Part shown: positions 5,494 to 52,570 of the stretch, piece by piece
Numbering within the stretch: position 1 is the stretch's first letter
How the letters are laid out: every line of letters begins with the position of its first letter
Origin: Tridacna crocea
Lineage: Eukaryota > Mollusca > Bivalvia > Cardiida > Cardiidae
DNA: 64,000 bases
Direction: 5' to 3'
Assembly (NCBI GenBank): GCA_943736015.1
Contig: OX031065.1
Coordinates: forward strand, 34,672,427 to 34,736,426
Translations under genes and position numbers: made by a program
Notes under the pieces: generated by a model
What the model was told of the DNA's origin: nothing
Database searches by the model: none
The model's input: the letters and a program-made list of their open reading frames with translations, nothing else

Positions 5494-6755
5494 GCTCACC
5501 TGAACACAACGTGCTCAAGGGGAGCTTTTAGGATCACCCGTCGTGCGTCAGTGCGTCGTCCATCGTCAACAATTCTTTAAACATCAACTCCTCCTAAATA
5601 GCTGGGCCAATTTGGACTAAACTTGGCTCGAATGTTCCTTGGGAGGTCCTCTTTAAAAACTGTCCATAGAATTCGATTCCATTAAAAACTCTGGTTGCCA
5701 TGGCAAGCAAATGGAATTGTTTAGCAAATTCTTTAAAAATCTTCTCCTCTCAAACTGCTGGTCGGATTTTGAAATAATTTCACAGATATGTTCCTTGGGT
5801 GACCCTTTTCAAAAAGTGTTCGTGAAATTTTGATCCATCAAAAAATGTGGCTCTGGTGAATGGGGGCTACCTGCACTATACAGAAATGAAGGAATTCTTA
5901 AAAATTCTTCTTCTCTGAAACCGCTGGTCGGTTTTTGAAATAATTTCAAGAGATGTTCTTTGGGTGACCCTTTCCAAAAATTGTTTATGAAATTTTGATC
6001 CATCAAGATACACGGCTCTGGTGAATGGGGGCTACTTGCACTGTACGGAAATAAATATATTCTTAAAAATTCTTCTTCTGTGAAACTGTTGGTCAGATTT
6101 CGAAATAATTTCGCAGAAATGTTCCTTTGCTGACCCTTTCCAAAATGTGTTGGCGAAATTTTGATCCGTCAAGAAACACGGCTCTGGTGAATGGGGGCTA
6201 CTTGCACTAGGGAAATGAAGAAATTCTCAAAAATTCTTCTTCTCAGAAACCACTTGTCAGATTTCAAAATAATTTCACAGAAATGTTCCTTGGATGACCC
6301 TTTTCAAAAATTGTTTGCGAAATTTTGATCCATCAAGAAACATGGCTCTGGTGAATTTGGGCTTCTTGCACTATATATACATGTAGCCATGAAGAAATTC
6401 TTTAAAATTCTTCTTCTCTGAAACGGCTGATCAGATTTTGAAATAATCTCACAGAAATTTTCCTTTGGTAACCCTTTTCAAAAATTGTTCACAAAATGCT
6501 GATTTAGCTAGAAACACGGATCTGGTGAATGGGGGCTGCTTGCACTATTTGGTCTTTAAAATTCTTTTTCTCTGAACAAAAGTTGCTCGAGAAATTTTGA
6601 TCCATCCAGAAACATGGCTCTGATGGCTGTAGGCTATTTACACTAATTCTTGAAAATTCTTCTTGTCCAAAATGGCCGATTAGATTTTGAAAAAAATGGC
6701 TATGGTTCTCTCAGAAATTCAGGTGAGCGATCCAGGGCCATCTTGTCCCTCATGT
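5494..6755 (+). mobile_element. Pearl-like element with GCTCACC terminus and satellite core
   Basis: Starts after TTA with GCTCACCTGAACACAACG and ends with CAGGTGAGCGATCCAGGGCC. Inside are about six tandem units of roughly 150 bp around GAAATTTTGATCCATCAAG and GGCTCTGGTGAATGGGGGC. No transposase. Non-autonomous bivalve elements with a satellite core are known; the class assignment here is inference. Confidence 0.7.
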
Positions 6756-8217: not shown

Positions 8218-8441
8218 TTAACTCTTTACCACACAATCCCGACTTTTAACGACCCTGACATAGAAGCCTTTTGAAAACATTGTGGGAAAAGGAGAAAATG
8301 ATGGTAACCAGCATTTTCTCCTTTTCCCATTGTGTTTTCTACCCTTCCCAGAACAAATTTCAATTTTTCAGTCACCTTTGTCGTCTGCAAGTGCTTTCAA
8401 TTTGGACATATATAAATTTTTGTCGTTTGGTAAAGAGTTAA
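8218..8441 (+). mobile_element. TTAA-MITE family A
   Basis: Full length. Small deletion in the GTCAC...TTTGTCGTC part. Confidence 0.85.
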
Positions 8442-8497
8442 ACTGGTGGAAATAAGCTGTACTCTTCTAGAGTGAATCATCAACTCCTTCACCATGC

Positions 8498-8724
8498 TTA
8501 ACTCTATACCAAACGACAAAATTTTAGACTGGTTCAAACTGAAAGGATTTGCAGACGACAAAATGAACGTGACTAAAGAATTCAAATTTGTTTTAGGAAA
8601 AGAAGAAAACATTGTGGGAAAAGGAGAAAATGCTGGTTACCAGCATTTCTCCTTTTCCCACAATGTTTTCAAAAGACTTCTTTCATAGAGGTGTTAAAAG
8701 TCAGGATTGTGTGGTAAAGAGTTG
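8498..8724 (-). mobile_element. TTAA-MITE family A
   Basis: Full length. Right duplication changed to TTGA. Confidence 0.85.
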
Positions 8725-9815: not shown

Positions 9816-10955
9816 TAAACAAGAAGGCCAAGATGGCCCTGGATAGCTCACCTGAATTTTTGAGATGACCATAGCCTATTTTTTTTTTTTGACGTTTTGA
9901 AACATTGGAACCAAATTTATAATTTTGCTAAGCAATTTTCAAAAGGTCACCTGTAAAATTCATTTTGAAATCTGACCATCAGTTTCAAAAAGAGTTTTTA
10001 AGAATTCTTCATTTCTGTATAAGAGCAAGTATTCCCCATCCACGAGAGCCATGTTTCTTGATGGATCAAAATTTACGAACAAGTTTTCAAAAGGGTCACC
10101 CAAGGAACATTTCGGAAGTTTTTTTTTTTAAATCTGACGAGGGGTTTCTGAGAAAGAGAATTTTCAAGAATTTCATCATGTCCATATCTGACTAGGGGTT
10201 TCAGAGAAGAAGAATTTTCAAGAATTTCTTCATTTCCATATAGTGCAAGTAGCCCCCATTCACCAGAGCCATGTTTCTTGACAGATCAAAATTTTGTGAA
10301 CAGTTTTTGAAAAGGGTCACCCAAGGATCATCTCTGTGAAATCATTTCAAAATCTGTCCAGCTGTTTCAGAGAAGAAGAATTTTTAAGAATTTCTTCATT
10401 TCCCTATAGTGCAAGTAGCCGCCATTCACCAGAGCCATGTTTCTTCACCAACAAAATTTCCCAAAAACTTTTTGAAAAGGGTCACCCAAGGAACATCCTT
10501 GAGAAATTATTTCAAAATCTGACCATCGGTTTCAGAGAAGAAAATTTTTTAAGAATTTCCTCATTTCCCTATAGTGCAAGTAGCCCCCATTCACCAGAGC
10601 CATGTTTCTTGACCAATCAAAATTTCGTGAACAGTTTTTGAAAAGGGTCACCCAAGGAACAACTCTGTGAAATTATTTCAAAATCCAACCAGCGGTTTCA
10701 GAGGAGAAGATTTTTAAAGAATTCCTTGATTTCTGTATAGTGCAAGTAGCCCCCATTCACCAGAGCCACAATTTTTTACGGATCAAAATTTCACGAACAA
10801 GTTTTGAAAAGGGTCACCCAAGGAACATATCTGTGAAATAATTTCAAAATCCGGTTTCAGAGGAGAAGATTTTTAAAGAATTTGCTAATAAATTCCATTT
10901 GGTTGCCATGGCAACCAGAGTTTTTGACGGAATCAAATTCTGTGAACACTTTTTA

Positions 10956-12743
10956 GCTCACCTGAGCACAACGTGCTCAGGGGGAGCTATTGTGACCGGT
11001 CATCGTCCGGCGTCCGTCCGTCCGTCCGTCCATCTGTCCGTCCGTTAACAATTTCTTTAAAAATCTTCTCCTCCAAAACCAGAAGGCCAATCTTGATAAA
11101 ACTTGGCAGGAATGTTCCTTGGGTGAAGCTCTACAAAAATTGTTAAAAGAATTTAATTCCAACAAAAACTCTGGTTGCCATGGCAACAAAATGGCTGAAA
11201 ATGGAAAAAATCTTTAAAAATCTTCTTGTGACAAACCATAAGGCCGGGAGCATTCATATTTTGTATGAAGCATCATTGGGTGACCCTTTACCAAAATTGT
11301 TAAAATTATTCCCCTGGGGTCATATTTGGGCTTTGCCCGGGCGCACCCTATTTTACATAGAAACAAAGAAGGAAAGCTTTAAAAAATCTTCTTCTGACAA
11401 ACCATAATGGCTAGAGCATTCATATTTGGTATGTAGCATTATCTGATGATCCTCTACCAAAATTGTTAAAATTATTCCTCTGCTGTCATATTTGGGCTCT
11501 GCCCGGGCGCACCCTATTTTAAAATCTTTAAAAATCTTCTTTTGACAAAACATAAGGTTGGGAGCATTCATATTTTGTTTGAAACATCATTGGGTGACCC
11601 CTTACCAAAATTGTTAAAATCATTCCCATGGGGTCATATTTGGGCTTTGCCCGGGCGCACCCTATTTTACATAGATATTTAGAAGGAAATCTTTAAAACT
11701 TCTTCTGGTGACAAATCATAATGGCTAGAACATTCCTATTTAGTGTGTAGCATTAATTGATGATCTTCTACCAAAATTGTTGAAATTATCCTTCTGCGGT
11801 CATATTTGGGCTCTGCCCGGGCGCACCCTATTTTACAATCTTTAAAAATCTTCTTGTGACAAACCATAAGGCGGAGGGCGTTCATATTTTAATTGAAGCA
11901 TTATTGGGTGACCCCTTACCAAAATTGTTAAAATTATTCCCAGTGGGTCATATTTGGGCTTTGCCCGGGCACACCCTATTTTACATAGAAACAAAGAAGG
12001 AAACCTTTAATAAATCTTTTTCTGACAAACCGTAATGGCTAGAGCATTCATATTTGCTATGTAGCAAAATCTGATAATCTTCTACTAAAATTGCTAGAAT
12101 TATCCCTCTGCGGTCATATTTGGGCTCTGCCCGGGCGCACCCTATTTTACATAGAAACAAAGAAGGAAATCTTTTATAAATTTATTTGTGACAAACCATA
12201 AAGGCTAGAGCATTCATATTTTGCATGTAGCATCATCTAGTGACCCTTTATAGAAATAATTAAAATTATCCCCTTGGGGTCATATTTTGGCTCTGTGCCC
12301 TGGTGCACACTATTTCACATGGAATCATAAAAGGAAATTTTTAAAATCAATTCCATCTAAAAAGGAGAAATTGTTTGTAACAAGCAATTTCTCCTTTCTC
12401 ACAATCTTTTCTACCATATAGATCACTTATTTTTCATTTTAGATACATTTTAAAATGTCGTCTGCAATTTGTTTCAATTTGGAACGGTCTAAAATTTTGT
12501 CGTCTGGTAATGGCTAAACTACAAGTCAAAAATGGAACAAGACACTGTGAAGAGAAAAATTGATGATAAACAGCAGCTTTTAGCTCCACTGGCCAAAGAC
12601 AAAGAAGAAAATCTGTAAACATATTTTTGTGACAAACCCCAGGGTATGCCTTATTTGAAAAGAATTAATAGCCTGCCCTTGATAAACCATATAAGTTACA
12701 AATATACTCAGGTGAGCGATATAGGACCATCATGGTCCTCTTG
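10956..12743 (+). mobile_element. Pearl-like element nested in another, different satellite core
   Basis: GCTCACCTGAGCACAACG start and CAGGTGAGCGATATAGGACC near the end, flanked by TTA (10953-10955, 12744-12746). The core is a different array: about seven units of roughly 160 bp containing TTTGGGCTCTGCCCGGGCGC and CAAACCATAATGGCTAGAGC. A short CCGTCCGTCC run lies near the 5' end. Confidence 0.75.
12355..12517 (+). mobile_element. TTAA-MITE family A, partial
   Basis: Hairpin (GAGAAATTGTTTGTAACAAG) and right end inside the nested pearl-like element. Left end missing. Confidence 0.6.
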
Positions 12744-13099: not shown

Positions 13100-13310
13100 C
13101 CTTCGCAAACAATCCCCAGTTTTCACGACTCAGTGAAAGCCTTCTGAAAACCTTTTGGGAAAAGGAGAAAATGCTGGTAACCAGCATTTTCTCCTTTTTA
13201 CACATGGTTTTCTTTACTTCTCAAAACAAATTTCAATTTTTGAGTCAAATTGATTTTGTCATCTGCAAATGCTTTCAATTTGGACTTGTCTAAAATAATG
13301 TTTAAATTAA
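13100..13310 (+). mobile_element. TTAA-MITE family A
   Basis: Left TIR eroded, hairpin intact, right end short of GTTTGGTAAAG. Meets the next copy at TTAA 13307. Confidence 0.7.
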
Positions 13311-13539
13311 ACTCTTTACCAAACGACAAAATTTTGGACTAGTCCAAATTGAAAGCATTTGCAGAAGACAAAAAAAAAAGTCAATCAAAAATTGAAATTT
13401 TATTTGGAAAGGGTAGAAAACGTTGTTGGAATTAAGGAGAAAATGCTGGTTACCAGCATTTTCTCCTTTTCTCAGAGTGTTTTCAAAAGCTTTCATTTCC
13501 AGGGTCGTTAAAAGTCGAGATTGTGTGGTAAAGAGTTAA
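13307..13539 (-). mobile_element. TTAA-MITE family A
   Basis: Full length with a 9-A run after GCAGAAGAC. Confidence 0.85.
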
Positions 13540-23135: not shown

Positions 23136-23239
23136 TTATTGACCCTAAGTCAGGTTTCTAGGTTTGATTGATTGACTTTGCATTTATTTATTGTCACCAA
23201 TGGTTTCTCAGATTGTTAGTATTGTTAGAGGGGATAGTG

Positions 23240-23791
23240 CATCTTTGCAAGCCAAGAGTAATGATCCACTACGCTATTCTACCCTTGGCGGATCGAGCTT
23301 GATTTCGACATTCCCCGATACGTATTTTCATAGGTTGCAGCTAGCTCTAACTGCACGAATCAAATGGCTGGTAGCATTTCATCTTAGATAAAAATACAAC
23401 AAGGTCACAACCTTTCGGATAGAAATAGAAGGTAAATATGAATACCTTGGATGTGTGCAGGCTCTGTAATAATTTATTACCAAAAAAAGACATAGATTTA
23501 ACAATATTTACAGAAAGTTTCAGTGTAACCAATCAATTATCAGAGGCTTTAGGCTATATCCTAGCACCTGACCTTAGAATGTCGAAGTATGTTTGTGCTT
23601 ATTGCTTCATGTTGAATTATTATATTCGTAAGCGGTTTGTTCAACGATATTTCACTGGTTATAAGAAATATGATGTAAAGGGAAATAATAAGCAGCATCC
23701 AATAGGGGATGTATCATGGGAATCTCGAAATCTGGCTCAATCCGTCAAGGTAAGATTCACATAGTGATCATAACCTTGGCTGGCGAAGATG
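23240..23791 (+). mobile_element. Mutator-like TIR element carrying the ZAD-like exon (copy 1)
   Basis: The ends begin CATCTT and finish AAGATG. About 95 bp at each end form an imperfect inverted repeat (roughly 70 percent by eye; shared blocks GCCAAG, ATGATC, GGATxGAGC, GATTTCGA, ATTCC). The 9-bp direct repeat GGGATAGTG flanks it at 23231-23239 and 23792-23800. Long TIRs with 9-bp duplications are typical of Mutator-like elements. No transposase is encoded; the inside holds the ZAD-like exon, so the structure is Pack-MULE-like. Confidence 0.8.
23438..23749 (+). CDS. ZAD-like exon, candidate first coding exon
   Basis: The exon opens with ATG at 23438, after an in-frame TAG at 23426, and ends at a good donor (AAG|GTAAGA). 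The 104 codons end in phase 0, the phase required by the first recognised RREB1 exon at 37508. Residues 1-60 look like a zinc-finger-associated domain: C7, C10, C53 and C56 form two CxxC pairs 42 residues apart, with LTIF after the first pair and hydrophobic positions between, as in ZAD (usually an N-terminal dimerisation module of C2H2 factors). The last codons overlap the 3' terminal inverted repeat of the mobile element that contains the exon. It may be the true N-terminus of the zinc-finger gene, the first exon of something else, or a captured fragment with no host role. Domain call fair, linkage to RREB1 uncertain. Confidence 0.45.
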
Positions 23792-23812
23792 GGGATAGTG
23801 CAGAACAGGTCT

Positions 23813-23963
23813 TTTAGCACCATCACATGGACCTCGGTTTAATGTCTCATCCGAAAGACTATTAGTAATTTTAGATGGCCAGCTGTGGGGATGGAACCCA
23901 CACATTCATGATAACGAGTCCTACGCTCTACCAATTAACTGAGCTATGCAGGCTGGTCCACGT
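23813..23963 (-). repeat. tRNA-derived SINE
   Basis: On the - strand: TGCATAGCTCAGTTAATTGG (box A), GTGGGTTCCATCCCCAC (T-arm, box B), then GTCTTTCGGATGAGAC and TTAAACCGAGGTCCATG. The head folds like a tRNA but the acceptor stem is mismatched, so it is not a functional tRNA gene. It lies just right of the ZAD element. Confidence 0.7.
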
Positions 23964-34644: not shown

Positions 34645-34656
34645 TATTATGGATCC

Positions 34657-35058
34657 CATCTTCACGAGCCAAGGTTACGATCACTACATGAATCTTCCCT
34701 TAGCTGATTGAGCCTGATTTCGAGATTCCTGTGATGCTCCCTCTATTGGATGCTGGTTATTACCCCCTTTTACATCATATTTTTAATAGCCAATGAAATA
34801 TCATTTTACAAACTGCTTACGAATACACATGAAGTGATAAGCAGACATCCACGTGGGTTTCCATGTTTACCTTATATTAAAAAAGTAGCAACCATATTCT
34901 ATTTTTATCACAGATGAAATGCTACAAGGGATTTCATTTGTTGCAGTTAGAGCTGGCTGCATCAAATGAAAAAGTGTATCAGAGGAATGTAAAAATCAAG
35001 CTCGATCTGCCAAGGGTAGAGTAGCCTAGTGAATCGTCAGCCTTGGCTTGCGAAGATG
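34657..35058 (-). mobile_element. Mutator-like ZAD element, decayed inverted copy (copy 2)
   Basis: Read on the - strand this is homologous to 23240-23791 along its whole length, about 80 percent in the best parts. It has the same ~95-bp TIRs and its own perfect 9-bp flanks TATGGATCC (34648-34656 and 35059-35067). About 130-150 bp covering the ZAD core are deleted, leaving ATG and DVC followed by a frameshifted tail that stops after 15 codons. The splice donor is lost (AAGGTAAG has become AAGGGAAG). Confidence 0.85.
34725..34865 (-). pseudogene. Remnant of ZAD-like exon in inverted element
   Basis: Homologous to 23438-23749 on the opposite strand. The start ATG survives (in AAACATGG), but the second half of the domain is joined out of frame and reaches TAA at once. 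Deletion ends share TGTGC or TGC, suggesting microhomology-mediated loss. Confidence 0.75.
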
Positions 35059-35339
35059 TATGGATCCATAATTATGTGATGACTTGTCTGGTTTGATGTA
35101 TAATGTAGATGCATAAAGCCCTCTTTTGTCATAGCATGGCTCAAATGAATGGTATCCAATACAGGTGCTGATGTTGGCCTTGTTTGATAGGAGCCAAATT
35201 TGTCAATTTTATTGGGTTCTGAAGCAGGTGTTAATTGCACTTGAGTCTGTCAGGGTAGCATCCACTCGTTGATATATGACAGTTTCTTAAACTGTGGTAA
35301 CTTGGCAACCCAGGATCATGGATGTTTTAGTAGCTTTTG

Positions 35340-38444: not shown

Positions 38445-38546
38445 CTTTTATCACTTGATAACTAGTTTTATTGACCTTAGAGAAAAGAGCTTTCTGACAT
38501 TGTTTGATAAGAAGAAACTGCTGGCAAAATGCATTTTCTTCTATTA
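38445..38546 (+). mobile_element. TTAA-MITE family A, fragment
   Basis: Diverged left half and hairpin, cut by the next copy. Confidence 0.4.
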
Positions 38547-38767
38547 ACTCTTTACCACACAATCCCGACTTTTATCGACCCTGAGAAAGAAACCTGTTGA
38601 AACCATTGTGAGAAAAGGAGAAAATGCTGGTAACCAGCATTTTTTCCGTCCACAATGTTTTCTACCCTTCCCAAACCAAAGTTCAATTCTCGCCACATTC
38701 ATTTTGTCATCTGCAAATGCTTTCAGTTTGGACCAGTCTTGGATTTTGTTGTTTGGTAACAAGTTAA
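38544..38767 (+). mobile_element. TTAA-MITE family A
   Basis: Full length; right arm shortened (TTTTTTCCGTCCACAATG). Confidence 0.85.
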
Positions 38768-38792
38768 TTTAATTTCCGTCCTGTTAGGATCA

Positions 38793-39021
38793 TTAACTCT
38801 TTACCACACGACAAAATTTTAGACTGGTTCAAATTGAAAGCATTTGCAGACGACAAAATAAAATTGACTGAAAAATTGAAATTTGTTCTGGGAAGGGTAG
38901 AAAACATTGTGGGAAAAGGAGAAAATGCTGGTAACCAGCATTTTCTCCTTTTCCCACATTGTTTTCAAAGGCTTTCATTTTCAGGGTAGTTAAAAGTCGG
39001 GATTGTGTGGTAAAGAGTTAA
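38793..39021 (-). mobile_element. TTAA-MITE family A
   Basis: Near consensus; ends 86 nt before exon 39108. Confidence 0.9.
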
Positions 39022-39107
39022 CCTGTCATCTGCAATTGCTTTTTAAAATTCCAAATATTTCTTTGTTATAGTAGCATGTTGATATATCTTTTTATATCTA
39101 ATTACAG

Positions 39108-39583
39108 GGGAGAGACCTTTTGTTTGTAAAGTATGCAACATGTCTTTCACAACCAATGGGAACATGCATAGACATGCACGCATTCATACCAAAGAAGAAA
39201 ATATGAACGCCCTTGGCAGCAGCCAGGCTAACAAATTCCAAATGCGGAGAAGTAAAACAGCATGGCGTCAACGTCTTGGTCAATACCTGACCCAGAATAA
39301 CAGTCCTGTTGCTGACCGTATAAAGCCCTTATCGTCTCAGGAATTACTTCAAACATTACCCAATCACTCTCAACGATCTTTGTTTGGACGTCCCACAGAA
39401 AATCTCCCATCTATGGTGCCAAATTTAAAGCGACAGTATAGCAATGGACCAGACTCAAGTCCTGATTGGTCAATTCCATTTAAACGACAATCACTAGAAA
39501 ATAATAATGATATCTATAAGACATATAACTACACTCTCAACACGTGTAAAGAGGAGGAACCAGAACAGATTAAACAAGAAGTG
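39108..39583 (+). CDS. RREB1: RREB1 coding exon: zinc finger 3 and basic linker
   Basis: The acceptor is ATTACAG|GGG and the donor AGTG|GTGAGT, leaving phase 0. The exon completes the HSGERPF linker and encodes finger 3 ([21 protein letters not shown]), which is nearly identical to the third finger of human RREB1. The remaining 125 residues are low in structure and rich in S, N, Q and R, with the basic patches [11 protein letters not shown] and FKRQS and a terminal [11 protein letters not shown] that contains a SUMO-type motif (IKQE). In vertebrates the same position holds a basic, NLS-like linker. Confidence 0.95.
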
Positions 39584-39621
39584 GTGAGTTATTTTATTGC
39601 TAATTTGTAAAGTTCTTAAAT

Positions 39622-39690
39622 CTTGACCAAACAACAGATTTTAGGATTGTTCTAATTGAAAGCATTAGCAGACTACAAAGAAAAGTTGCG
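39622..39690 (-). mobile_element. TTAA-MITE family A, end fragment
   Basis: ACCAAACAACAGATTTTAGG and GAAAGCATTAGCAGAC only. Confidence 0.4.
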
Positions 39691-39817
39691 GACTGTTCTG
39701 TATTGTGAAAGCATTTACAGATGACTGATCAAATGTTGCTCAAAGGAATGCCTCGTGTTCATCAGTGAGAGAGGAATTAATCCTGTTGCAATCATTAGTC
39801 CTGGGCTGGGAATTCAT

Positions 39818-40045
39818 ATACTCTTTACCAAATGACAAAATTTTAGATTGGTCCAAATTGAAAGCATTGGCAGACAACAAAATAAAGTGACTGAAATTTT
39901 GCAATTTCTTTTAGGAAGGGAAGAAAACATTGTGCAGAAAAGGAGAAAATGTTGGTTACCAGCATTTTCTCTTTTTCCCAAGATGTTTTCTAAAGGCTTC
40001 TTTCTCAGGGGTGTCAAAAGTAGGGATTGTGTGGTAATGGGTTAA
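39818..40045 (-). mobile_element. TTAA-MITE family A
   Basis: Full length; left duplication ATATA. Confidence 0.8.
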
Positions 40046-40123
40046 ACCATTGACCCCGTTAGTCTCAAGAACTGCGTGCTACAGAATAGTGGAATTCGAG
40101 AGGTGTATGCGTCGGGCATTATA

Positions 40124-40354
40124 CATTACCAGATTACCGAACAACATTTATTTTAGGGTTGGACAATTTGAAAAAGTTGCAGACGACAAAATAAAAGTGA
40201 CTGAAAAATTGGAATTTGTTTTGTGAAGAGTAGAAAACATTGTGTGAAAAGGAGAAAATGCTGGTTACCAGCATTTTCTCATTTTCCCACAAATTTTTTT
40301 CAAAAGCCTCTATCCTCAGGGTTGTTAAAAGTTGGGATTGTGTGGTAGAGTTAA
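40124..40354 (-). mobile_element. TTAA-MITE family A
   Basis: Full length. A second copy of its last 60 bp follows at 40355-40415, ending 62 nt before exon 40478. Confidence 0.75.
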
Positions 40355-40477
40355 TTTTCTCCTTTTCACACAATGTTTTCAAAAGCCTGTATCCTTGGCG
40401 TCGTGTGGTAGAGTTGATACATGTGCCTATTTAAGTCAAAACAGGTCTTACCACTTTTACGTTTTACAATATTTCAG

Positions 40478-41630
40478 CCTGAAGAAACAGAAAGTAAGAC
40501 AGATAAGGATGTTCTTCATTGTCCAGTTTGTTCCAAAACATTCCTGTGTAAAAATGGCCTAGAAAATCATCTAGAAACTCATCCAGACTTTGTCTGTCAT
40601 TGTAGCATATGTAATCTCACTTTTGAAAACCCGAGAAAACTCCGAGTTCATCGATTAATCGCTCACTCCGATGTCAGCAAGGAAGATTCATCGAAAGGTG
40701 ACAGTGAGAATGACGATGACATTGAAATTGGTTTTCATGATCTCAGTTTTGTGGATTTTTCCGTAGACAAATTTCCTCTGATTGCTAAGCATTATTTTGA
40801 GGAAAATGCTCGGATACCTAGCAGTGTATATCTGAACTTTACCTGTAAAAAATGCTCAAAAGCATTTCCATGTGAAACAAGCCTCTACCTTCATTCTTTC
40901 TCTCACACCAAGGATAAATCAACCCAGTGTCCTATCTGTGAGTCTGACTACACATCAAGTGCCGAGCTGCATAACCATATGCTCAAACATTTGGCTGACA
41001 GGGCTTTTGAAGAAATCCGTCCATCCAGTAAAAATGAGAAAGGAGACAATGATGTAATGCCCGACAGTCTCCTGAAGCATGACTTTCTTGCAATGTTTGG
41101 GTTGAAAGAGGAAGAAAATAGATCTGACATGAAACCTGTTACTCAACAACCAAAGAAAGAGCAATCAAAATCCAGTAAATCATCTGAAAAGAAAATAAAC
41201 AATGAATATTTCTCAAAGTTAGGACAAATATTTGGGGCTGGTCTGCCACCATTGTTCAGTCAGCTTCCTTTCTTCCCACCAGGTTATCAACCAACATTAG
41301 ATGACTTTCATAAGATGCTCCAGATAGCCACCAACATGACATCTTTACCAAGTATGGGTCCTGGATTGTTGATGAAGGGTCTGCCAGGTGCTGGTGGTCC
41401 CTCCCCATCAAAATTACCCTCTGAATCCAAATCTCTTAATGATGACCCACCAAAAACATCACCTCTTCCTGCCCATTCTAAAAGTGGAAAGAGGGCAAGT
41501 TTGTTATCCTCACCCAAACTGGAAGATCGACAATCACTCAGTGGACCTGAGAAAGAGATCAACGACATTAAGTTGCAGAACACTCACCCCTGGCCTTGCA
41601 GTTCCTTCACCAGCTATAAGTCTTTAGAAG
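40478..41630 (+). CDS. RREB1: RREB1 coding exon: zinc fingers 4-7 and start of degenerate finger 8
   Basis: The acceptor is TATTTCAG|CCT (phase 0) and the donor TAGAAG|GTATGC (phase 1). Four C2H2 fingers are visible (CPVCSKTF..., CSICNLTF..., CKKCSKAF..., CPICESDY...). Between the second and third lies the block IGFHDLSFVDFSVDKFP, a diagnostic RREB1 segment (human reads GFHDLGFTDFS). A ~200-residue linker follows, rich in P, S, L and K, with FLAMFGLKEE matching the human FLALLGLQ motif. The last residues start finger 8, whose second cysteine is missing (WPCSSFTSYKSLE). An unspliced transcript would stop 18 codons into the intron. Confidence 0.95.
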
Positions 41631-41689
41631 GTATGCATAATTATAATGAATTTTTGCTTTCTCAGACTTCAGCCTTGACCTTATAACAG

Positions 41690-41890
41690 AATTGTGTAAT
41701 CTACCAAATTACACAGTTTGCATATGACATAGTGTATAGTTCTAATGATGACTTTCTGTCTTTGATAGTTCAGGAAATATTGTGGGAAAAGGAGAAAATG
41801 CTGGTTACCAGTATTTTCTCTTTTTCCCACATTATTTTCAAAACCCTTTTACATGAGGTTATTTAAACCTGGTATTGTGTAGGAAATTAC
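41690..41890 (-). mobile_element. TTAA-MITE family A, degenerate
   Basis: Starts 60 nt after the donor of exon 40478-41630. Hairpin intact. Confidence 0.55.
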
Positions 41891-42009
41891 CATATTATCA
41901 GTATTTGATATGCTCTTGTTGGTTGAAAACTACTGAAAATATTGATTGAAAATAGGGCAGTTACTAAAGACAAGCAATTGCACTGTCACAACGTTTTCCA
42001 TTCAATTCT

Positions 42010-42238
42010 TTAAACCATTACCACAGATTCCCTACTTTTGACAACCCTGAGAATGAAGCCTTTAGAAAACATTGAGGGAAAAGGAGAAAATGCTGGTAAC
42101 CAGCATTTTCTCCTTTTCTCACAATGTTATGTACCCTTCACAAAACAAATTTCAAATTTTTAGTCACTTTTATTTTGTCGTCTGCAAATGCTTTCCATTT
42201 GGACAAGCCTAAAATATTGTCATTTGGTAATGACTTAA
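42010..42238 (+). mobile_element. TTAA-MITE family A
   Basis: Full length, both TTAA present. Confidence 0.85.
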
Positions 42239-42494
42239 GCATTAATAAATTACAAAATTCTTGACTAAACTGAACTCAAAGCATTAATAAATTACAAAAT
42301 TCTAGACTAAACTGAACTCAAAGCATTAGCAGACAACATATAGAGTTTTGCTAAAATGAGGATTCTATGCGTGATAGGATAGAAAACGTTGCAAGAAAAG
42401 GCTGGTTACAAGCATCTTCTTGCTTTCTTACAATGTTTAAAGAGGCTTCTTCCCTAGGGGTGTTAAAATTTGAGGTTGTGTGGTAAACAGTTAA
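42239..42494 (-). mobile_element. TTAA-MITE family A with 42-bp duplication
   Basis: Follows the preceding TTAA directly. Its left part is duplicated (42239-42280 and 42281-42322, one mismatch). Confidence 0.7.
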
Positions 42495-42621
42495 TAGCTT
42501 TTTTTGTTTTTGGTAGACATTTTTTCTTCGTTTTATTTGAAGTCAATCTCATTTTTGAATTTTGAACGATTCTTTATGTACGAATTTGTTCGTAAACTTG
42601 GAATTCAAGCTAGAAACTCCT

Positions 42622-42841
42622 TTAACCCTTTACTCCATAGATACTCATTTCTACTCATTGCTTGTAGGAGCCTTTGGAAAACATTGTGGCAAAAGGTGAA
42701 ATTGCTCGTGACGAGCAATTTCAACTTTTGCCACAATGTTTTCTATGCTATCAAAAGGTGTCATATACACATAAGGAACAGCTTTATCCTTGCTGTTGTT
42801 TAGGGTCAATTAGAGATACCATAGAAATGCATTATAGGGTA
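42622..42841 (+). mobile_element. TTAA-MITE family B, right end eroded
   Basis: Ends ATTATAGGGTATGC instead of GGGGTAAAGGGTTAA. Confidence 0.85.
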
Positions 42842-42924
42842 TGCTTTGTAAATGCAATCGAGATTATTAGCCTTTGCCAGTGCTCATTATACTTAAGTCC
42901 CCAAAACAACTTAGTTCCTACTCA

Positions 42925-43034
42925 AAGCTCGGCTGGGTACAGCTCAGTGGTTAGGGTATCTGACTCGTGACCTGGAATTTGTGGGTTTGATACCAAGTTG
43001 CCGTAACTTCTTTTGTGGTGACATCAACGCTCTG
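42925..43034 (+). repeat. tRNA-derived SINE head
   Basis: CAGCTCAGTGGTTAGGG (box A) and GGGTTTGATACC (box B) about 40 bp apart, joined to a MITE fragment. Confidence 0.55.
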
Positions 43035-43215
43035 AAAGACTGATTTTGAAAATATTGTGGGAAAAGGGGAAAATGCCTGTAACCAGCATTTTCCCCTTTT
43101 CCCACTATGTTTTCTTCACTTTCTAGTAGAAATTTTAGCTTTTTAGTCTCATTCTTTTTGTTGTCTGCAAACACTGTTAATTTGGACTAAAATTTTGTCA
43201 TTTGGTAAAGTGTTA
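43035..43215 (+). mobile_element. TTAA-MITE family A, left end missing
   Basis: Hairpin with paired change AAAAGGGGAAAATG / CATTTTCCCCTTTT. Confidence 0.7.
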
Positions 43216-43619
43216 CGCATTTGTAGGTGCAGGTTTGTTTACAAATTTTACTTATTGCAGCCCATAGAGAAAAGAGAGTAAGTTTCACCAAAATATCTGT
43301 ACTCCATAACACAAAATTAGAAAACAAGTATACACCTTTGCTAAATAGTTTTGAACATCTGCAGACCTTCTGAATTTGAAAGAATCTTAAATCTGTTGGT
43401 TTTTGAAAGTGTGAAAGGTCATCTGTCTATTTTTATCTTTTACAAGAGATTTGGAAACAAAGTTTTTTTCATATTATTGTTCGAGGAGTCATTTAAAAAA
43501 GAAAAACAGAATTGTAACAATCTTATTTGAAAAAAAAACATGTAAAGTACAATTGTTAATATTTTCCCATCATTTTATTGTTGTGAATGAATTAGGATTC
43601 CAAATACACTATAGAGACT
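43216..43619. other. Intronic stretch, no clear feature
   Basis: Weak MITE-like traces at 43300-43410 only. Confidence 0.35.
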
Positions 43620-43849
43620 TTAACTCATTACCAAACGACAATATTTTAGGTTTGTCCAAATCAAAAGCATTTGCAGACGACAATATGAAAGTGACTGAAA
43701 ATTTGAAATTTGTTTTGTGAAGGGTAGAAAACATTGTGGGAAAAGGAGAAAATGCTAGTTACCAGCATTTTCTCCTTTACCCACAATGTTTTTTAAACGA
43801 TTTTTCAGGGGTGTCACAAGCAGGGAATGTGTGGTAACGAATGGGTTAA
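43620..43849 (-). mobile_element. TTAA-MITE family A
   Basis: Full length. Confidence 0.85.
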
Positions 43850-44169
43850 CAAAAAATAGGGTGTTCAAGGATGCTTTTGTTCATACACATGTTTTGTGTA
43901 GTCTGATCTTGATCTACACTGGATACATAAATATCTAAAGTTGATAGGTGCTTTATAGTTAAGTAATGTTTGTTATGGAGGACAGAATAGCTGGTTTTGT
44001 AAGGTATGTTGTTCTTGACTTGCAATATCTTTTCTTTAAGTACATGCACCGAATAAAGTGCATCATTCGCTGTTGAATGAATATGTGTAGTTGATATATT
44101 GTTAAACGTATATAGCATTATCTAAAGTCTGTTAAAATGAGTGGCTTTGTATCCTGTTAAGATTCAAAT

Positions 44170-44405
44170 CTTTGACCATACAGTCCATGTAGTGTAGCCT
44201 ACCCTCTGTTCATGTGGATCCATTTTTGCAATAGATGGTTGAAATCATGAGAATTTAATTATGGCGTAACCGATTGAATTTGACTTTGATATACAGAAAA
44301 TATTTCAAGAAAACAAGAGTGTTGGTTACAGGCATTTTCTGTTTTCTACAGTGTTTTTGTATGTCTTCTTCTATGGGGTAGGTAAAAACCGGGATTGTTT
44401 GGTAG
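44170..44405 (-). mobile_element. TTAA-MITE family A, highly degenerate
   Basis: Only GTGTTGGTTACAGGCATTTT and GGGATTGTTTGGTAGAG remain clear. Confidence 0.35.
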
Positions 44406-44687
44406 AGATATCAAAAGCATTTATGCATCAAGTAAAGTTTGGACAGATTTGGTCAGAAGCAGCTCTGTGCATGAATATCAAATGCTTAAATCTTTGGAAA
44501 CAGATCCTGGCTGTCTTGCTCAAAATTCTTTTAGATAAAACAGCATGTGATGGATTGTTAATACATGTATTTGTATTTTATTTCAAGGCATGACTATTGA
44601 GTTTGCAAACCATGAACTCTGTAATTGATTTCATTGGACACTTTGTTGCACAAGCATGTACAGTATAATGTAGATTTGTGGATTGAC

Positions 44688-44896
44688 TTAACTCATTACC
44701 AAATGACAATATTTTAGGCTTGCCCAAATGGAAAGCATTTTCAGACGACAAAATAAAAGTGATTGAAAATTTGAAATTTGTTTTGTGAAGGGTAGAAAAC
44801 ACAGTGGGATAAGGAGAAAATGCTGGTTACCAGTATTTTTCTCCTTTTGCCACAATATTTTCTAAGGCTTCTTTCTCAGGGTCATCAAATTATGTG
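44688..44896 (-). mobile_element. TTAA-MITE family A, right end lost
   Basis: Runs into the 16-bp tandem array that follows. Confidence 0.8.
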
Positions 44897-44911
44897 GAAA
44901 AATTTTGTGGA

Positions 44912-44975
44912 AAATTACAGAAGACTCAAATTACAGAAGACTTAAATTACAAAAGACTTAAATTACAGAAGCCTT
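44912..44975 (+). repeat. 16-bp tandem repeat, four units
   Basis: AAATTACAGAAGACTT with one or two changes per unit. Confidence 0.85.
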
Positions 44976-45348
44976 TGAGGATGCTAAGTTTTTATTTGTC
45001 TAATTAAAAGTCTCACAAGTAAACATTATGGAAAAATGAAAAAAAATGCTGGTAATTTTTTCATTTCCCCCATACTGTTTTTCCAAGCATTTTTTTTGGT
45101 TGCCAAGAGGTGATTGTTTGGTAATTCTTTACCAAGCATGTAAATTGTTGAAGATATTTGTGTTTCTATGATGCATAATGATTTATTATTATCCCATGAT
45201 CTTTGCCATTTAGGGAAAAAACTCCCCAAAGTTTTATACACTCAAGTATATGTAACAGATTAATTTTGATATTATTTCTTCAACTGCTGCTTTGTATTCT
45301 TGATTAAAATCATATTCATAATAATTATTTGATATTTTAAAAGGATGT

Positions 45349-45574
45349 TTAACTTGTTACCAACGACAAAATTTTAGACTGGTCCAAATTGAAAGCATTT
45401 GCAGATGACAAAATAGAAGTGACTAAAGATCTGAAATTTGTTTTGTGAAGGGTAGAAAACATAGTGGGAAAAGGAGAAAATGCTGGTTACCAGCATTTTC
45501 TCCTTTTCCCACAATGTTTTCTAAAGGCTTCTTTCTCAGGGTCGACAAAAGTAGGGATTGTGTTAATGGGTTAA
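45349..45574 (-). mobile_element. TTAA-MITE family A
   Basis: Full length; a scrap of a further right half follows to about 45650. Confidence 0.85.
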
Positions 45575-45721
45575 AAGCAGCTTTCCAGCTTCCAGTTACC
45601 AGCTTTTTCTCCATTTTCTGCAAAGTTTTTGGAAGCATTCTTCCTCAAACTCACGAGAACTTGGAAATGCATTGTAAAAAATTAATAGTACTGGACTGAC
45701 CATGTTTGATTTTATTTTCAG

Positions 45722-45899
45722 CTCATATCACTACCCACCTAGTCCATGCTCCCTACAAGTGTAACCTCTGTGTATATTCAAGCCCAGACAGGAGCTCTCT
45801 CATCCGTCATATTCGAACCCATACGGGCAGTCGCCCATTCCAGTGTCTGGAGTGTGATTATGCATTCTCAACTAGAGGGAATTGTGAAAGACATATCAG
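45722..45899 (+). CDS. RREB1: RREB1 coding exon: end of finger 8, fingers 9-10
   Basis: The acceptor is TTTTCAG|CTC and the donor ATATCAG|GTAGGC, leaving phase 2. It encodes the histidine half of finger 8 (AHITTH), then CNLCVYSSPDRSSLIRHIRTH and CLECDYAFSTRGNCERHIR. Human RREB1 has the same triplet, with a CDYI-type finger followed by one ending NCERHLRKKH. The second finger is completed by the next exon (RKQHH). Confidence 0.95.
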
Positions 45900-46102
45900 G
45901 TAGGCTGTACAAGAGTTCTTGTATTTGTAACACAGTGATATCAATCATGTGACATAATTATATTGTTATTCTTTTTTTTCACTCCTTTTTCTGTAGAAAA
46001 CTGAGCAATAGATATAGTTCTGTTCGTGCAAACTTCACTTTATTGTGACATTTCGTTAGTGTTTATTAGGTCCTAAAACAGCCTTTGTAATTATGAATTA
46101 AA

Positions 46103-46317
46103 TCTATACCAGGTGCTTATACTTGTACAAATTAAAAGCATTTTTACTTAGCAAATGTCGACTCATCCAAAAATTGAAACTGATTTTGGGAAGAGTAGAA
46201 GACATTGTGGGAAAAGGATAAAAGGCTGGTTAGCAATAATTTGTCCTGTTCCTACAATGTGTAGGAAAGCTTTCTTTTTCAGGGTCATAAAAACAGGATT
46301 GATTGGCAGAGATTTAA
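46103..46317 (-). mobile_element. TTAA-MITE family A, diverged
   Basis: First of three chained copies. Confidence 0.6.
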
Positions 46318-46521
46318 CCCCTTACCACTCAATCCCAAATTATAATGACCTTGAGGAAAGGACTTTTTAAAATATTTTGGAAAAAGGAGAACATGCCTGT
46401 AATCAGCATTTTCTCCTTTTCCACAATATTTTCTACCCTATCAAAAGCAGAAATCATATTTAGAGCTACCTTTAAGTTTTCGTCTGCAAATGCTTTCAAT
46501 TTGGTCAAGTACAAAAGTTAA
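46314..46521 (+). mobile_element. TTAA-MITE family A, variant
   Basis: Shares a TTAA with each neighbour. Confidence 0.7.
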
Positions 46522-46745
46522 CTCTTTACCAAACAACAAAAAATTAATGTGGACAAGACCAAATTCAAACCAGACGACATAATCAGTGTAGCTAAAATAA
46601 TGATTTCTATCTACAACAGGTTAGAAAATATTGTAGGAAAAGGAGAAAATGCTGGTTACCAGCATTTTCTCCTTTTTCCACAATGTTTTCAAAAGGCTTC
46701 TTCCTCAGGCTTGTTAAAACTCGGGATTGTGTGGTAAAGAGTTAA
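46518..46745 (-). mobile_element. TTAA-MITE family A
   Basis: Right end and hairpin near consensus; left part diverged. Confidence 0.8.
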
Positions 46746-46787
46746 GGAGCTGTCTGCCTCATTGTCCATGATTCTATTGGTATTTTG

Positions 46788-47017
46788 TTAATCCTTTTCC
46801 ACACAATGATGACTTTTGACGACCCTGAGGTAGATGCCATTTGAAAACATTGTGGGAAAAGGAGAAAATGCTGGTAACCAGCATTTTCTCCTTTTCCAAC
46901 AATGTTTTCTACCTTTCCCAAATGAAAATTCCGATTTTACAGTCACATTTATTTTGTCGTCTACAAATGCTTTCAATTTGGACCTGTTTATAAATTTGTG
47001 GTTTGCTAAAGAGTTAA
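46788..47017 (+). mobile_element. TTAA-MITE family A
   Basis: Full length, ending 36 nt before the acceptor of exon 47054. Confidence 0.85.
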
Positions 47018-47053
47018 GGGGATTCTACTTCACCTTTTCATTTTACATTTTAG

Positions 47054-47810
47054 GAAACAGCATCATATAGAGCGTAAAGAGGACATTGAAAGGTGCATCT
47101 ACTTCAACAGAAATGCATTACAATATGACACAGGCAAGTTACGCTCTCCAGATACAGTATGCAAGTACTGCAGTACAGATTTCAAATATTTCCAAGCCTT
47201 GAAGAATCATCTACAATCACCTGCTGTTAGTAAGGAGAAACCTTACCAGTGTGTCTTGTGTAAAATAGGATTCTGCGCGAAGTCTCTCTGTGTGCGTCAC
47301 ATTCACAAGTCACATCCTGAAGTCAGCGAGATACAGACTGATGCATTCATAAAGGTTGTCTTTGATGTTGACAGTAAAGATGTAGACACAAATGTTGATG
47401 ATGGAATACCCTTGTATTCTATTGAGACACCAGAGTTTTTCTCCCATTTCAATCACAGATCTGAAAATGGGACACCACAACCTCCCGCTGCCCACTCTAC
47501 ACCAAAACCTGACAGTTTGGTTGGCCGTACAAGTCGTCATGTATCACCAAATCGCCATGTTTCCCCAAGTCGTCATATTTCACCGAATAGGCACATATCC
47601 CCAAAGGCACATATTTCACCATCAGAAAGCCCTATGTTTATTAAGAAAGAAGTGGAAGATGATAGTGTAGAAACACCACTAGATTTTAGTAAAACGGCAG
47701 CAAGTGACCCTGTTGATATGTCCAATAGTAAAGACAAAGTTTCAGCCGAGGCTCCGATGGATTTATCCTGTAAGAAGTCTACCACACCAGAGAGGAAGGA
47801 ATATTCTTCG
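47054..47810 (+). CDS. RREB1: RREB1 coding exon: fingers 11-12, RHxSP repeats, CtBP motifs
   Basis: The acceptor is CATTTTAG|GAA (phase 2) and the donor CTTCG|GTAAGA (phase 0). After RKQHHIERKEDIE (human RKKHLKATRKDIE) comes finger 11, CKYCSTDFKYFQALKNHL, which lacks its last histidine, and canonical finger 12, CVLCKIGFCAKSLCVRHIHKSH. Five or six copies of RHxSPx follow (RHVSPNRHVSPSRHISPN and on), each a proline-directed phosphorylation site. Near the end are PLDFS, PVDMS and PMDLS, PxDLS-type motifs known to bind the corepressor CtBP; human RREB1 has PLDFS and PIDLS at this position. A TTAA MITE ends 36 nt before the acceptor. Confidence 0.95.
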
Positions 47811-47974
47811 GTAAGAAATTTTTGAAATCTTGTGGAGGAAGAGGGCTGTCTAGGACTTTTTTGAAAAAAGAAAAAAATGTGTGAATATTCATTTTTTCTT
47901 TAGCCCATTATGTTTTCTATTGTTATAGAGGCAAATCATTTGAATAATATTTACATCATTTACCAAAGATGAGC

Positions 47975-48236
47975 CATGTTTGATACACAATTTTAGACTG
48001 GCCCAAAGTCAATGCAGTTGCAGATGACAAAATAAACACAAGTCAAAAATCAAAAATCAAATACTGTTTCCAGTAAGGCAGAAAGCATTGTGGGAAAAGG
48101 AGAAAATGCTGGTTTCCAACATTTTCTCCTTTTCCCACAGTGTTTTCAAAAGGCTTTTTTTCAGGGCCTTAAAAACCAGGAATTGTTTTTTCCCAAGGAG
48201 GAAATGCTGGCTACCAATGTTTTCAAAAGGCCTCAT
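47975..48236 (-). mobile_element. TTAA-MITE family A, diverged
   Basis: Hairpin AATGCTGGTTTCCAACATT, followed by an extra partial arm at 48195-48230. Confidence 0.55.
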
Positions 48237-48461
48237 TTAACCCTTTACCAAACAACCCCTGGTTTTTATGGCCCTGAAAAAGAAGCCTTTTGAAAACACT
48301 GTGGGAAAAGGAGAAAATGCTAGTAAACAGCATTTTCTCCTTTTCCCACAATGTTTTTTTACCCTTTTCACAAAACAAATTTTCAGTCGCTTTTATTTTG
48401 TCGACTGCAAATGCTTTCGGTTTAGACAAACCTAAAATATTGTTATTTGGTAATGAGTTAA
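48237..48461 (+). mobile_element. TTAA-MITE family A
   Basis: Full length. Confidence 0.85.
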
Positions 48462-48637
48462 AGACAATAAATTATCGTTTCAGTGAAGCCGCATTTTTTC
48501 TACAGTTATTTCTTTAGATTTAACAAGTCTTAAATTTTGTCTTTTTCAGTTGGAAGATGTAAGTTATAGATGTAATAAAAAATTGGAAAATTGGACTATA
48601 GTTGGATCATCTTCACTGTTATTTATTTCATTTTCAG

Positions 48638-48935
48638 TCGGATTTGGCCTCATTTGAAAGACGTATGCAGCATCAACATGGTCATGTGCCCTTCTCTGAA
48701 TCGTCAGTTTCATCTCACTTTTCTGCCTTTCCGTTGTGGAATACTGAAGGAAAACTACTCCTCCCTCCTAGATCTTCTGTTTCACCTTTCCAGTCCAATC
48801 CTGCGACAGGACTTATACCTAGTCGTGTAGGGTCGTTTCAACCAAAGGGAAAGATGCCAGTCTCCACTCTACAGTCTTTGCAAGATAAGATTAAGATGAA
48901 CCTGAAACATGACAATTTGACAAGATCCCCTAGTG
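48638..48935 (+). CDS. RREB1: RREB1 coding exon: linker without fingers
   Basis: The acceptor is CATTTTCAG|TCG (phase 0) and the donor CTAGTG|GTAAGT (phase 1). It encodes 99 residues without cysteine pairs, rich in S, P, F and H, ending in a basic helix-like stretch (LQDKIKMNLKHDNL). I see no named domain. Assignment rests on frame continuity with both neighbours, good splice sites and position; the matching part of vertebrate RREB1 is also unstructured and poorly conserved. Confidence 0.85.
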
Positions 48936-49028
48936 GTAAGTTGTACAGTATGTTTTGAATGACCATCACACAGCAATGAATATGGCAAAAAGTATGAATT
49001 ATGCTCTGTGAAAGAAGGACGAAGGTTT

Positions 49029-49437
49029 TTAACTCTTTACCAAACAACAGTATTATAGACTGGTCCAAATTGGTGTCCATGGTCATGAGGTACAGTGTCG
49101 GCTTTATAACCTAAAGGTCCTGAGTTCGATACCCAGGAGTGGGTGTCAACTTTGGGATTTTTCATTGGCCCACACATTCGGCGCCAGTACTGGTGAGGTT
49201 CCCAGGAAGCAGAATCAAGAGAGATTAGTAGGAACTTATTTCTCAATCGATGTAAAATAAATATGTTTAAACTAAATTGAAAGCATTAGCAGACAAGTAA
49301 ATGTGACTAAAACACAGAAATTTTGTTTGGGAAGGTTAGAAAACTGATTACCAGCATTTTCTCCTTTTCCCACAATGTTTTCAAAAGGCTTCTTTCTCAG
49401 TGTAATCAAAAGTAAGAATTGTGTGGTATTGGGTTAA
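49029..49437 (-). mobile_element. TTAA-MITE family A, split by a SINE
   Basis: Left part 49029-49072, right part from 49280. Left hairpin arm deleted. Confidence 0.8.
49073..49273 (+). repeat. tRNA-derived SINE inside a MITE
   Basis: Box B in GAGTTCGATACCCAG; body GTGGGTGTCAACTTTGGG; AT-rich tail. Flanked by AAATTG (49067-49072, 49274-49279), a duplicated piece of the MITE. Confidence 0.7.
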
Positions 49438-49473
49438 TATGATTTTCACTGGCTGCTACAGCCAGTGATAGGG

Positions 49474-49655
49474 TAACTCTTTATAAGGCAACAAAATTTG
49501 AGCCTTGGCCTAACTGAAAGCATAAATTTTTCACACAACAAAGTACATGTATATAGATGTTAAATGGGTAGGAAAAACATAGGGCAAATGAGAAATGCTG
49601 GTTGCTAGCAATTTCTCCTCTCTATAGTCTTTTCAAAGTCCTTTTATTGTCACTG
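49474..49655 (-). mobile_element. TTAA-MITE family A, degenerate
   Basis: Hairpin AAATGCTGGTTGCTAGCAATT. Confidence 0.45.
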
Positions 49656-49679
49656 TTATTTGTTTCCTTGAGGAAAGGA

Positions 49680-49844
49680 TTAGAATTTCAATCAAAAATT
49701 GAAAATTGGTTTTAGCAGGGTAGAAAACATTGTGGTAAAAGGAAAAACTGCTGGTTACCAGCATTTTCTCCTTTTCCGGAGATGTTTTCAAAAGGTGTCT
49801 TCCTCAAGGTCATTAAAAGTTCGAATTGTTTGGTAAAGGGTTAA
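49680..49844 (-). mobile_element. TTAA-MITE family A, left end missing
   Basis: Hairpin to GGTAAAGGGTTAA. Confidence 0.65.
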
Positions 49845-50178
49845 GGAGTTTTATATGATTATGAATACACTACAGTTGTACAATATTATGGTAAGAGGAG
49901 AAAATATTAGCATCAAGCAGAGTTGCCTTTTGTCACATTGTTATTGAGAATGGCCTGCATCAATGTGAAAGAAGTCATTAGTTTGTGATAATAATATTTA
50001 TAGAGTTAATCTTTCATTTCTTTTTACGAACATGCTGAACAGATATTTAATATGGATGATGTAAGTTGATGAAGTTGTAAACTTGTTAGAATGATTATTT
50101 TCCTTTTGTGCCTGTTTATTTTGTTTTGTTTAATTTGCTTCCTTTTGTAGTTGAAACAGAATATTGACTGGCAAACAG

Positions 50179-50415
50179 TTAACTCTTTACCAAATGACAA
50201 AATTGTAGACTGGTCCAAATTGAATACAGTAAACTGTTGCAGACGACAAAATAAATATGACTGAAAAATTCAAATTTAGTTTGGGAAGGTTAGAAAACAT
50301 TGTGGGAAAAGGAGAAAATGCTGGTTTACCAGCATTTTCTCCTTTTCTTACAATGTTTTCAAAAGGCTTCTTTCTCAGGGTCGTCAAATGTCGGGATTGT
50401 GTGGTAAACTGTTAA
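50179..50415 (-). mobile_element. TTAA-MITE family A
   Basis: Full length with ACAGTAAACTG inserted near the left end. Confidence 0.85.
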
Positions 50416-50653
50416 GGTCGCCAGGATATAGTTGAAGCTGGCGATGCATGAGTGATATGGCTGCCTTTGACATTTATTTCTATATTCCATACATGATAGT
50501 AAGAAACAGTCATGTGTAGAATATTGCGAGAGAAAGTTTGCTAGGGTAATTATGTACGGAATACATGGAGAATAGTTGACAAACATATGCACAAAAAAAA
50601 GCTCTACCTTTGAAAAACACTGTCAACACTTTTTTTTTCATTTTTCTTTTCTG

Positions 50654-50882
50654 TTAACCCTTTCCCAAACAAACCCTTGTTTTTATGCGTCTGCAGTACA
50701 GGTCTTATGAAAACACTGTGGGAAAAGGAGAAATTGCTTGTAACAAGCAATTTGTCCTTTTCCCACAGTGATTTCTACCCATTTGGAGAACTTTCGGCCA
50801 TTTTTAATCAAATTTGAAATTGTCTTCTGCAAACTTCTTCAGTTTGGAAAGGTTGATAATTTGTCGTTTGGGTAAGGGTTAA
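50654..50882 (+). mobile_element. TTAA-MITE family A, variant
   Basis: Loop TTGCTTGTAACAAGCAA and arms AACACTGTGGG / CCCACAGTG differ from consensus but pair. Confidence 0.8.
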
Positions 50883-51445: not shown

Positions 51446-51675
51446 ACAAAACTTTTTACTAGATGATGCAATTTTAGTTGTGTCCAAATTGAAAGCAATT
51501 TGCAGATGACGTATTGTGCAACTTTAAATGATGAGATTAGGCACTGAATGGGTAGAAAATATATTGTGGAAAAGGAGAAATTGCTGGTTTCTAGCATTTT
51601 CTCCTTTTCCCACAGTATTTTCATAAGGCTTCTTCCTGAGTCATTGAAACTTTGGGCTGTTTGGTAAAAAGTTAA
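51446..51675 (-). mobile_element. TTAA-MITE family A
   Basis: Diverged left end, complete right end. About 108 nt upstream of exon 51784. Confidence 0.75.
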
Positions 51676-51783
51676 CTCCCGTTGTATAGATACAAGGTAA
51701 AAGTGTAAACTAAAAGCATTTGAATACATTTTAAAAGAAAAAACTACAAGTTATATTTCTATAAATTCCTTTGCTATTAACAG

Positions 51784-52475: not shown

Positions 52476-52570
52476 GACTTTTATTTGCTTTCAATAATAT
52501 TCCCATCATTTGTACCATGTTTGATATTTGTCTTCAACTGCATATAGTATATGTATGCATGTACATCTTG

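Follow-up and report, generated by a model that had tools for sequence, protein, structure and literature searches.

Does the 552-bp unit at 23240-23791 of a 64,000-nucleotide stretch of Tridacna crocea DNA (contig OX031065.1; the whole stretch is hereafter called the window) represent an animal Pack-MULE, that is, a Mutator-type element that captured a piece of a host gene and spread it? A first-pass annotation had proposed a Pack-MULE-like element of this sort, with a ZAD-domain exon inside. Its remark that gene-carrying Mutator-like elements are little described in animals is a fair one: according to the available sections of PMC8277862, Mutator-type elements that carry coding pieces other than a transposase have been studied extensively in plants and hardly reported in animals; 100 animal reference genomes yielded no Pack-MULE, and the single case is Ssk-FB4 in Drosophila populations. 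Among the papers listed, our literature search pairing MULE with ZAD revealed, by title and abstract, no apparent ZAD-bearing MULE, and those combining ZAD or zf-AD with transposon, transposase or MITE showed no such element, neither result proving absence. We find that the unit is probably one copy of a high-copy, non-autonomous and most likely Mutator-type family that carries a fossil ZAD frame. An animal family that carries a ZAD-like frame in high copy number would be either an animal pack element or the trace of a transposase with an unfamiliar N-terminal domain, and both origins are directly testable in this genome and its relatives.

Inverted ends and target duplication of the unit

The coordinates of the unit given in the first-pass annotation proved exact, as did the perfect 9-bp duplication around it (Table 1). 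The imperfect terminal inverted repeats that had been put at about 95 bp, starting CATCTT, were recovered as arms of about 98 bp, identical at 75 of 96 ungapped positions. Local alignment of the left and right arms scores 70, whereas 1000 shuffled versions of the left end reach 25 at most, and identical 9-mers lying 300-1000 bp apart have a background rate of about 9.6e-5 in the 64-kb window. Only four arms in the 64 kb rise above the inclusion threshold of the arm profile, two in the unit and two in a second, shorter copy (copy 2). Across both copies, left and right arms are 74-78% identical, while left arms agree with each other at 82% and right arms at 86%; among 95 ungapped arm columns, 10 separate left from right and 1 separates copy from copy, so the asymmetry between the arms predates both window copies. 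When 467 inverted pairs from the window were screened for inverted termini with a duplication of at least 7 bp, the unit alone came up, in three registers; copy 2 was missed, we think because BLAST extends its arm pair into the palindromic flank.

The window is also very densely occupied by a palindromic repeat (38544-39021, 8218-8723, 56828-57300, 13106-13539 and 42010-42497, plus dozens of pieces of about 230 bp). Its clearest copy, at 38544-39021, has TTAA on both sides (TTAACTCTTTACCACACAATCCCGA), and from this TTAA the repeat may be piggyBac-like.

Table 1. Positions in the window of the unit, its parts and the second copy.
Feature	Position	Strand	Remarks
Whole unit	23240-23791		552 bp; ends CATCTT...AAGATG; first letters CATCTTTGCAAG, last CTGGCGAAGATG
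Left 9-bp target-site duplication	23231-23239	.	GGGATAGTG; direct reading and family-wide test
Right 9-bp target-site duplication	23792-23800	.	GGGATAGTG; perfect repeat of the left one
Left terminal inverted arm	23240-23338	+	arm profile E 6.8e-28 (profile partly built from this arm)
Spacer from left arm to start codon	23339-23437	+	against copy 2, 19 differences at 92 aligned sites (from 23340)
108-aa frame P0001	23438-23764	+	stop TAG at 23762-23764, within the right arm
ZAD-like C-x2-C ... C-x2-C stretch	23453-23608	+	residues 6-57
Donor-like AAG/GTAAG	23747-23754	+	exact octamer in 29/39 genome copies; candidate site only
Right terminal inverted arm	23695-23791	-	overlaps the 3' end of the frame; arm comparison and profile
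Copy 2	34657-35058	-	402 bp; lacks the ZAD core (about 140 bp)
Copy 2 target-site duplication	35059-35067	.	GGATCCATA as read on the minus strand
Copy 2 target-site duplication, other side	34648-34656	.	GGATCCATA as read on the minus strand

An abundant non-autonomous family

With the unit as query, we searched the genome (1.0488 Gb in 31 contigs) and obtained 5,931 first-look candidates, of which 40 were scored, the query unit included; all 40 match essentially full length. The 39 other scored copies, selected for their likeness to the unit rather than at random and all fetched with flanks, are 86-89% identical to it, two of them covering only 1-540 and 29-552. They diverge by 2.9-8.4% from their majority sequence, and the unit itself by 9.0%. 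The 5,931 first-look candidates suggest that the family probably numbers thousands of copies.

When the edges are fixed by the ends, the flanking 9-mers match at 7 or more of 9 positions in 26 of the 39 copies (7 at 9/9, 15 at 8/9 and 4 at 7/9, with 13 lacking a clear duplication), compared with 3 of 1482 mismatched pairings, in which the left flank of one copy was set against the right flanks of others. A profile by position gives 26-32 matching copies inside the nine positions and 0-14 outside, with a sharp fall beyond exactly 9. The same emerged from a second set of 18 elements, found at 17 of 21 loci (no arm pair came from L120, L131, L135 or L139) and having 4 elements in common with the first set: 11 of 18 reached at least 8/9, while a single one of 306 controls reached 7/9 or more. 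Among the misses of the two sets are copies whose ends are damaged and others whose edges were apparently placed at least one base off (L078, L092, L136). The unit is a DNA transposon with inverted ends and a fixed 9-bp target duplication, the structure of a cut-and-paste (TIR) element, and its family is abundant, non-autonomous and about 555 bp long. The unit does move as a whole, as had been claimed, its duplications sitting at inverted-end edges that coincide in dozens of copies; it is not a rare pack element, however, but belongs to a numerous family without its own transposase.

Ten loci with early-ending protein matches or long frames were also fetched. In eight of them, both arms or the greater part of an ordinary copy are present; in the other two (L135, L139), different sequence has taken the place of the left part of the copy. 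At L135, next to this left-truncated copy, a 361-aa open frame that we take to be LINE ORF1-like runs along the opposite strand within the first ~1340 bases of the oriented locus. Searched in public collections, an 18-letter end pattern (17 specified bases) hit 19 viral and 29 prokaryote stretches with a likeness that did not extend along the arm (41 positions matched at E 0.011 in the best stretch, L046), and a literature text search for the end sequence found nothing related.

A short sub-family moves without the ZAD core

The claim of an independent copy with a different perfect 9-bp duplication holds for copy 2, which has GGATCCATA on both sides where the unit has GGGATAGTG. Copy 2 lacks the ZAD core altogether, about 140 bp having been deleted between short similar sequences, plus 9 bp more. 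The same deletion was found in two further short copies among the fetched copy loci, L083 (87.6% identical to copy 2) and L137 (86.6%), and the flanking duplications match at 9/9 in copy 2, 8/9 in L137 and 7/9 in L083. Since the short copies bear duplications of their own, the short form moved by itself and the ZAD core is dispensable in cis. The leader before the ATG is retained in both sub-families, full-length and short.

The reading frame resembles ZAD remotely

The cysteines of P0001 (Cys 7, 10, 53 and 56) form two C-x2-C pairs with ZAD-like spacing, and 3 of 2000 dinucleotide-shuffled versions of the unit contain an ATG frame of at least 108 aa. Against Pfam, P0001 matched zf-AD (PF07776) alone, with E 0.039 and 14.6 bits, below the curated cut-off of 28. 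Among nine shuffles with pinned cysteines, none matched zf-AD and three matched other, unrelated families at E<0.1, so the Pfam E-value for zf-AD proves little alone. We therefore turn to an independent ZAD profile made of four PDB stretches (7po9, 7pok, 6fp5 and 1pzw), retrieved with a ZAD-like query and presumably all ZADs. P0001 scores 16.9 bits on this profile, a value reached by none of 5,000 Cys-pinned shuffles (4,996 reported, maximum 14.7) and by none of 5,000 free shuffles (4,569 reported, maximum 9.5). The similarity covers the whole C-to-C stretch; Grauzone (1pzw) comes closest, with a BLAST E of 6e-5 when 4 sequences are searched. Sibling translations point the same way, with zf-AD as the best family in four of five (E 0.0021-0.023, 15.3-18.7 bits) and the fifth without a match. 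P0001 had no relative in viral contigs and no NCBIfam match, a PDB sequence search gave three weak, unrelated matches (E 0.53-0.64), and a single-sequence structure model had a mean pLDDT of 40, uninformative on the fold. Judged from these sequence comparisons, the similarity of P0001 to ZAD appears remote but above chance. The ZAD-like C7/C10-C53/C56 domain proposed in the first pass thus stands in its spacing, in a profile score above all shuffles and in zf-AD being the best match, but not at the level of the Pfam cut-off.

In ZAD-ZNF genes, the ZAD sits right behind the start codon. The frame is like these genes (Grauzone and others) in its CRxC ... C-x2-C arrangement directly behind the start codon, and unlike them in comprising 108 aa without a C2H2 array, ending in an inverted end and scoring below the Pfam cut-off.

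Decay of the frame and the donor-like site

Changes from the majority sequence amount to 5.7, 5.9 and 5.0% at codon positions 1, 2 and 3 and to 5.4% outside the frame, and the two window copies differ at 6, 14 and 10 of 53 sites at the three codon positions. As changes are spread evenly over codon positions and outside the frame, there was no coding constraint after insertion. The A-rich run behind Cys 10 measures 16 nt (in frame) in 10 of the 39 copies, 17 nt (frame broken) in 21 and other lengths in 8; including 3 of the latter, its length keeps the frame in 13 copies. A full read from the ATG to the frame end is found in three copies (L057, L065, L078), and the other 36 do not read through; the ancestor of the burst may already have been frame-broken. 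Among the best 150 scored protein matches, a set chosen for protein likeness, 47 (unit included) have no internal stop.

The splice donor reported inside the open frame exists as a donor-like octamer, AAGGTAAG, preserved in 29 of 39 genome copies. These copies ruled out the notion that the site is private to the unit, which had come from its lack in the other three window arms. The exon that the donor was thought to close is less secure: past AAG/GTAAG, the frame of the unit stays open for another 4 codons and then stops within the right inverted end, and it therefore need not be an exon. It is hard to credit the frame as a portable first exon, with its ATG, a ZAD protein-protein contact domain and the conserved candidate donor at its right edge. 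If it were one, a sense insertion in an intron could splice ZAD onto host proteins, thousands of insertions could seed ZAD fusion genes, and copies spliced into host genes would be a source of new ZAD proteins.

Mutator assignment and the search for a partner

The 9-bp duplication and the long ends, the only two characters used here, make the family most likely of Mutator type. In the available part of PMC6446971, the table of MULE groups gives 8-11-bp duplications and lists 9 bp with long ends for several groups; the family has 9 bp by the position profile over 39 copies, and arms of about 98 bp. The genome contains 61 MULE-domain matches, most of them in open frames and 15 with a 515-aa frame. 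Thirty-three of these 61 loci (129,629 bases, with flanks of 1.5-4 kb, from which a long element could escape) were searched for the arms; none had them at E<=0.01, and one partial arm match appeared at E 0.48. At 20 of these loci, open stretches of at least 40 residues gave no convincing match to the ZAD frame (lowest E values 0.049 on the family profile and 0.29 on the ZAD profile). Of the full element that the first pass proposed to look for, the genome offers the MULE transposases, but none with these ends among the 33 loci.

One MULE, seen at L113 and L115 (at about 313) and at L114, has frames of 475-515 aa; its copies are near-identical (about 98-99.5%) and seemingly start with repeats of GGACGTTTTGGCCA. 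This suggests recent Mutator activity in the genome.

Origin of the ZAD frame

In the mechanism that we propose, a transposase made elsewhere would bind the ~98-bp inverted ends and insert the unit at a 9-bp staggered cut, giving rise to the 9-bp duplication; ends and duplications are observed, and the enzyme and its action are reconstructed from them. The cargo looks like the start of a gene, in which a leader, an ATG and a putative ZAD-like zinc-binding domain would have been joined to the right inverted end, in which the frame terminates. The frame would be a fossil that the shared ancestor of the copies already had and that is now neutral passenger sequence; a sub-family without the core has still moved.

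Where this fossil came from is a close call. We slightly prefer, at about even chances, to see in it the first part of a protein encoded by an autonomous partner that is lost or rare: the ZAD stretch would be the N-terminal domain of the partner's own transposase, and an internal deletion would have joined it to the right end. The THAP domain at the N terminus in P elements offers an analogy for a ZAD at the front of a transposase. The layout of the unit is in keeping with such a derivative, the ATG lying 198 bp from the left end, the leader being kept in both sub-families and the frame running into the right arm. Against it, no frame longer than 187 aa appeared among the best 150 of 6,628 matches to the ZAD part (a search with the first 80 residues of the frame), nothing convincingly ZAD-like was found at the 20 MULE loci tested, and the zinc-finger table for MULEs in the available part of PMC6446971 names other types, the word ZAD occurring 0 times in that paper.

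Capture from a host gene ranks close behind, at somewhat less than even chances. Here, the first exon of a host ZAD gene would have been taken up by a Mutator-type element and multiplied with it, making the family an animal Pack-MULE proper. An ATG followed by a ZAD-like domain and then a conserved donor-like site does amount to a complete N-terminal arrangement, MULE transposases occur in the genome, and the 20 of 61 loci without a convincing ZAD-like stretch imply that the domain is not usual MULE equipment there. What speaks against capture is the donor. A zf-AD search of the genome had no match at E<=0.001 (22 candidates), although the controls were also silent and absence is not proven. 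The scored protein matches besides the unit are 62-82% identical (best 150 of 12,406 and best 150 of 6,628 candidates), the frames in these same two sets reach at most 187 aa, with no donor recognised among them, and the 10 matches chosen and fetched are copies of the same repeat, with no donor gene seen.

Comparison with known systems leaves the label 'Pack-MULE-like' partly apt, in that the family moves with a cargo frame, and partly not, given core-less copies that moved and neither a host donor nor a same-ended transposase found among the matches and loci examined. Like the Pack-MULEs of rice and Ssk-FB4 of Drosophila, as the available sections of PMC8277862 describe them, the family has inverted ends, long duplications (9-10 bp in FB4), a non-transposase coding piece and several independent insertions. 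Unlike them, it has no identified host donor gene and a far higher apparent copy number, and its piece is common to the full-length copies examined, decaying and dispensable for movement. Its shortness, high copy number, lack of a transposase, arms with duplications and deletion sub-family resemble those of non-autonomous Mutator-type elements and MITEs, from which it differs in keeping a recognisable ZAD-like N-terminal reading frame. Those elements too are short, high-copy and without transposase, and form deletion sub-families.

Merlin elements make target duplications of 8-9 bp, and P or hAT elements of 8 bp. We consider it unlikely that the family belongs to one of these superfamilies with long duplications and not to Mutator. 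Its ends start with CAT, whereas most arthropod MULEs have G/C in the first three bases, according to the available part of PMC13359780, and the ends recur at none of the 33 MULE loci examined, yet the duplication is 9 bp by the position profile, which speaks against P and hAT. Least likely of the readings of the frame's origin, and very improbable, is an open frame with accidental cysteines in a non-coding element: the lack of coding constraint among genome copies and between the two window copies, the 3 of 2000 shuffles that reach the frame length and the Pfam score under the cut-off would suit it, but none of 5,000 Cys-pinned shuffles reaches the score on the independent ZAD profile and the similarity spans the whole C-to-C stretch, with Grauzone (1pzw) closest.

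Other features of the window

At about 23880-23960 on the minus strand, the sequence looks by eye like a tRNA-derived repeat; the window has no tRNA according to ARAGORN. Related direct and inverted repeats that are 75-86% alike form arrays at 5571-6576, 9951-10955 and 11207-12346. On the plus strand, 39083-56612 contains five long frames with C2H2 zinc fingers (5 of 10 frames scanned), exons of at least one zinc-finger gene, which we take to be RREB1-like.
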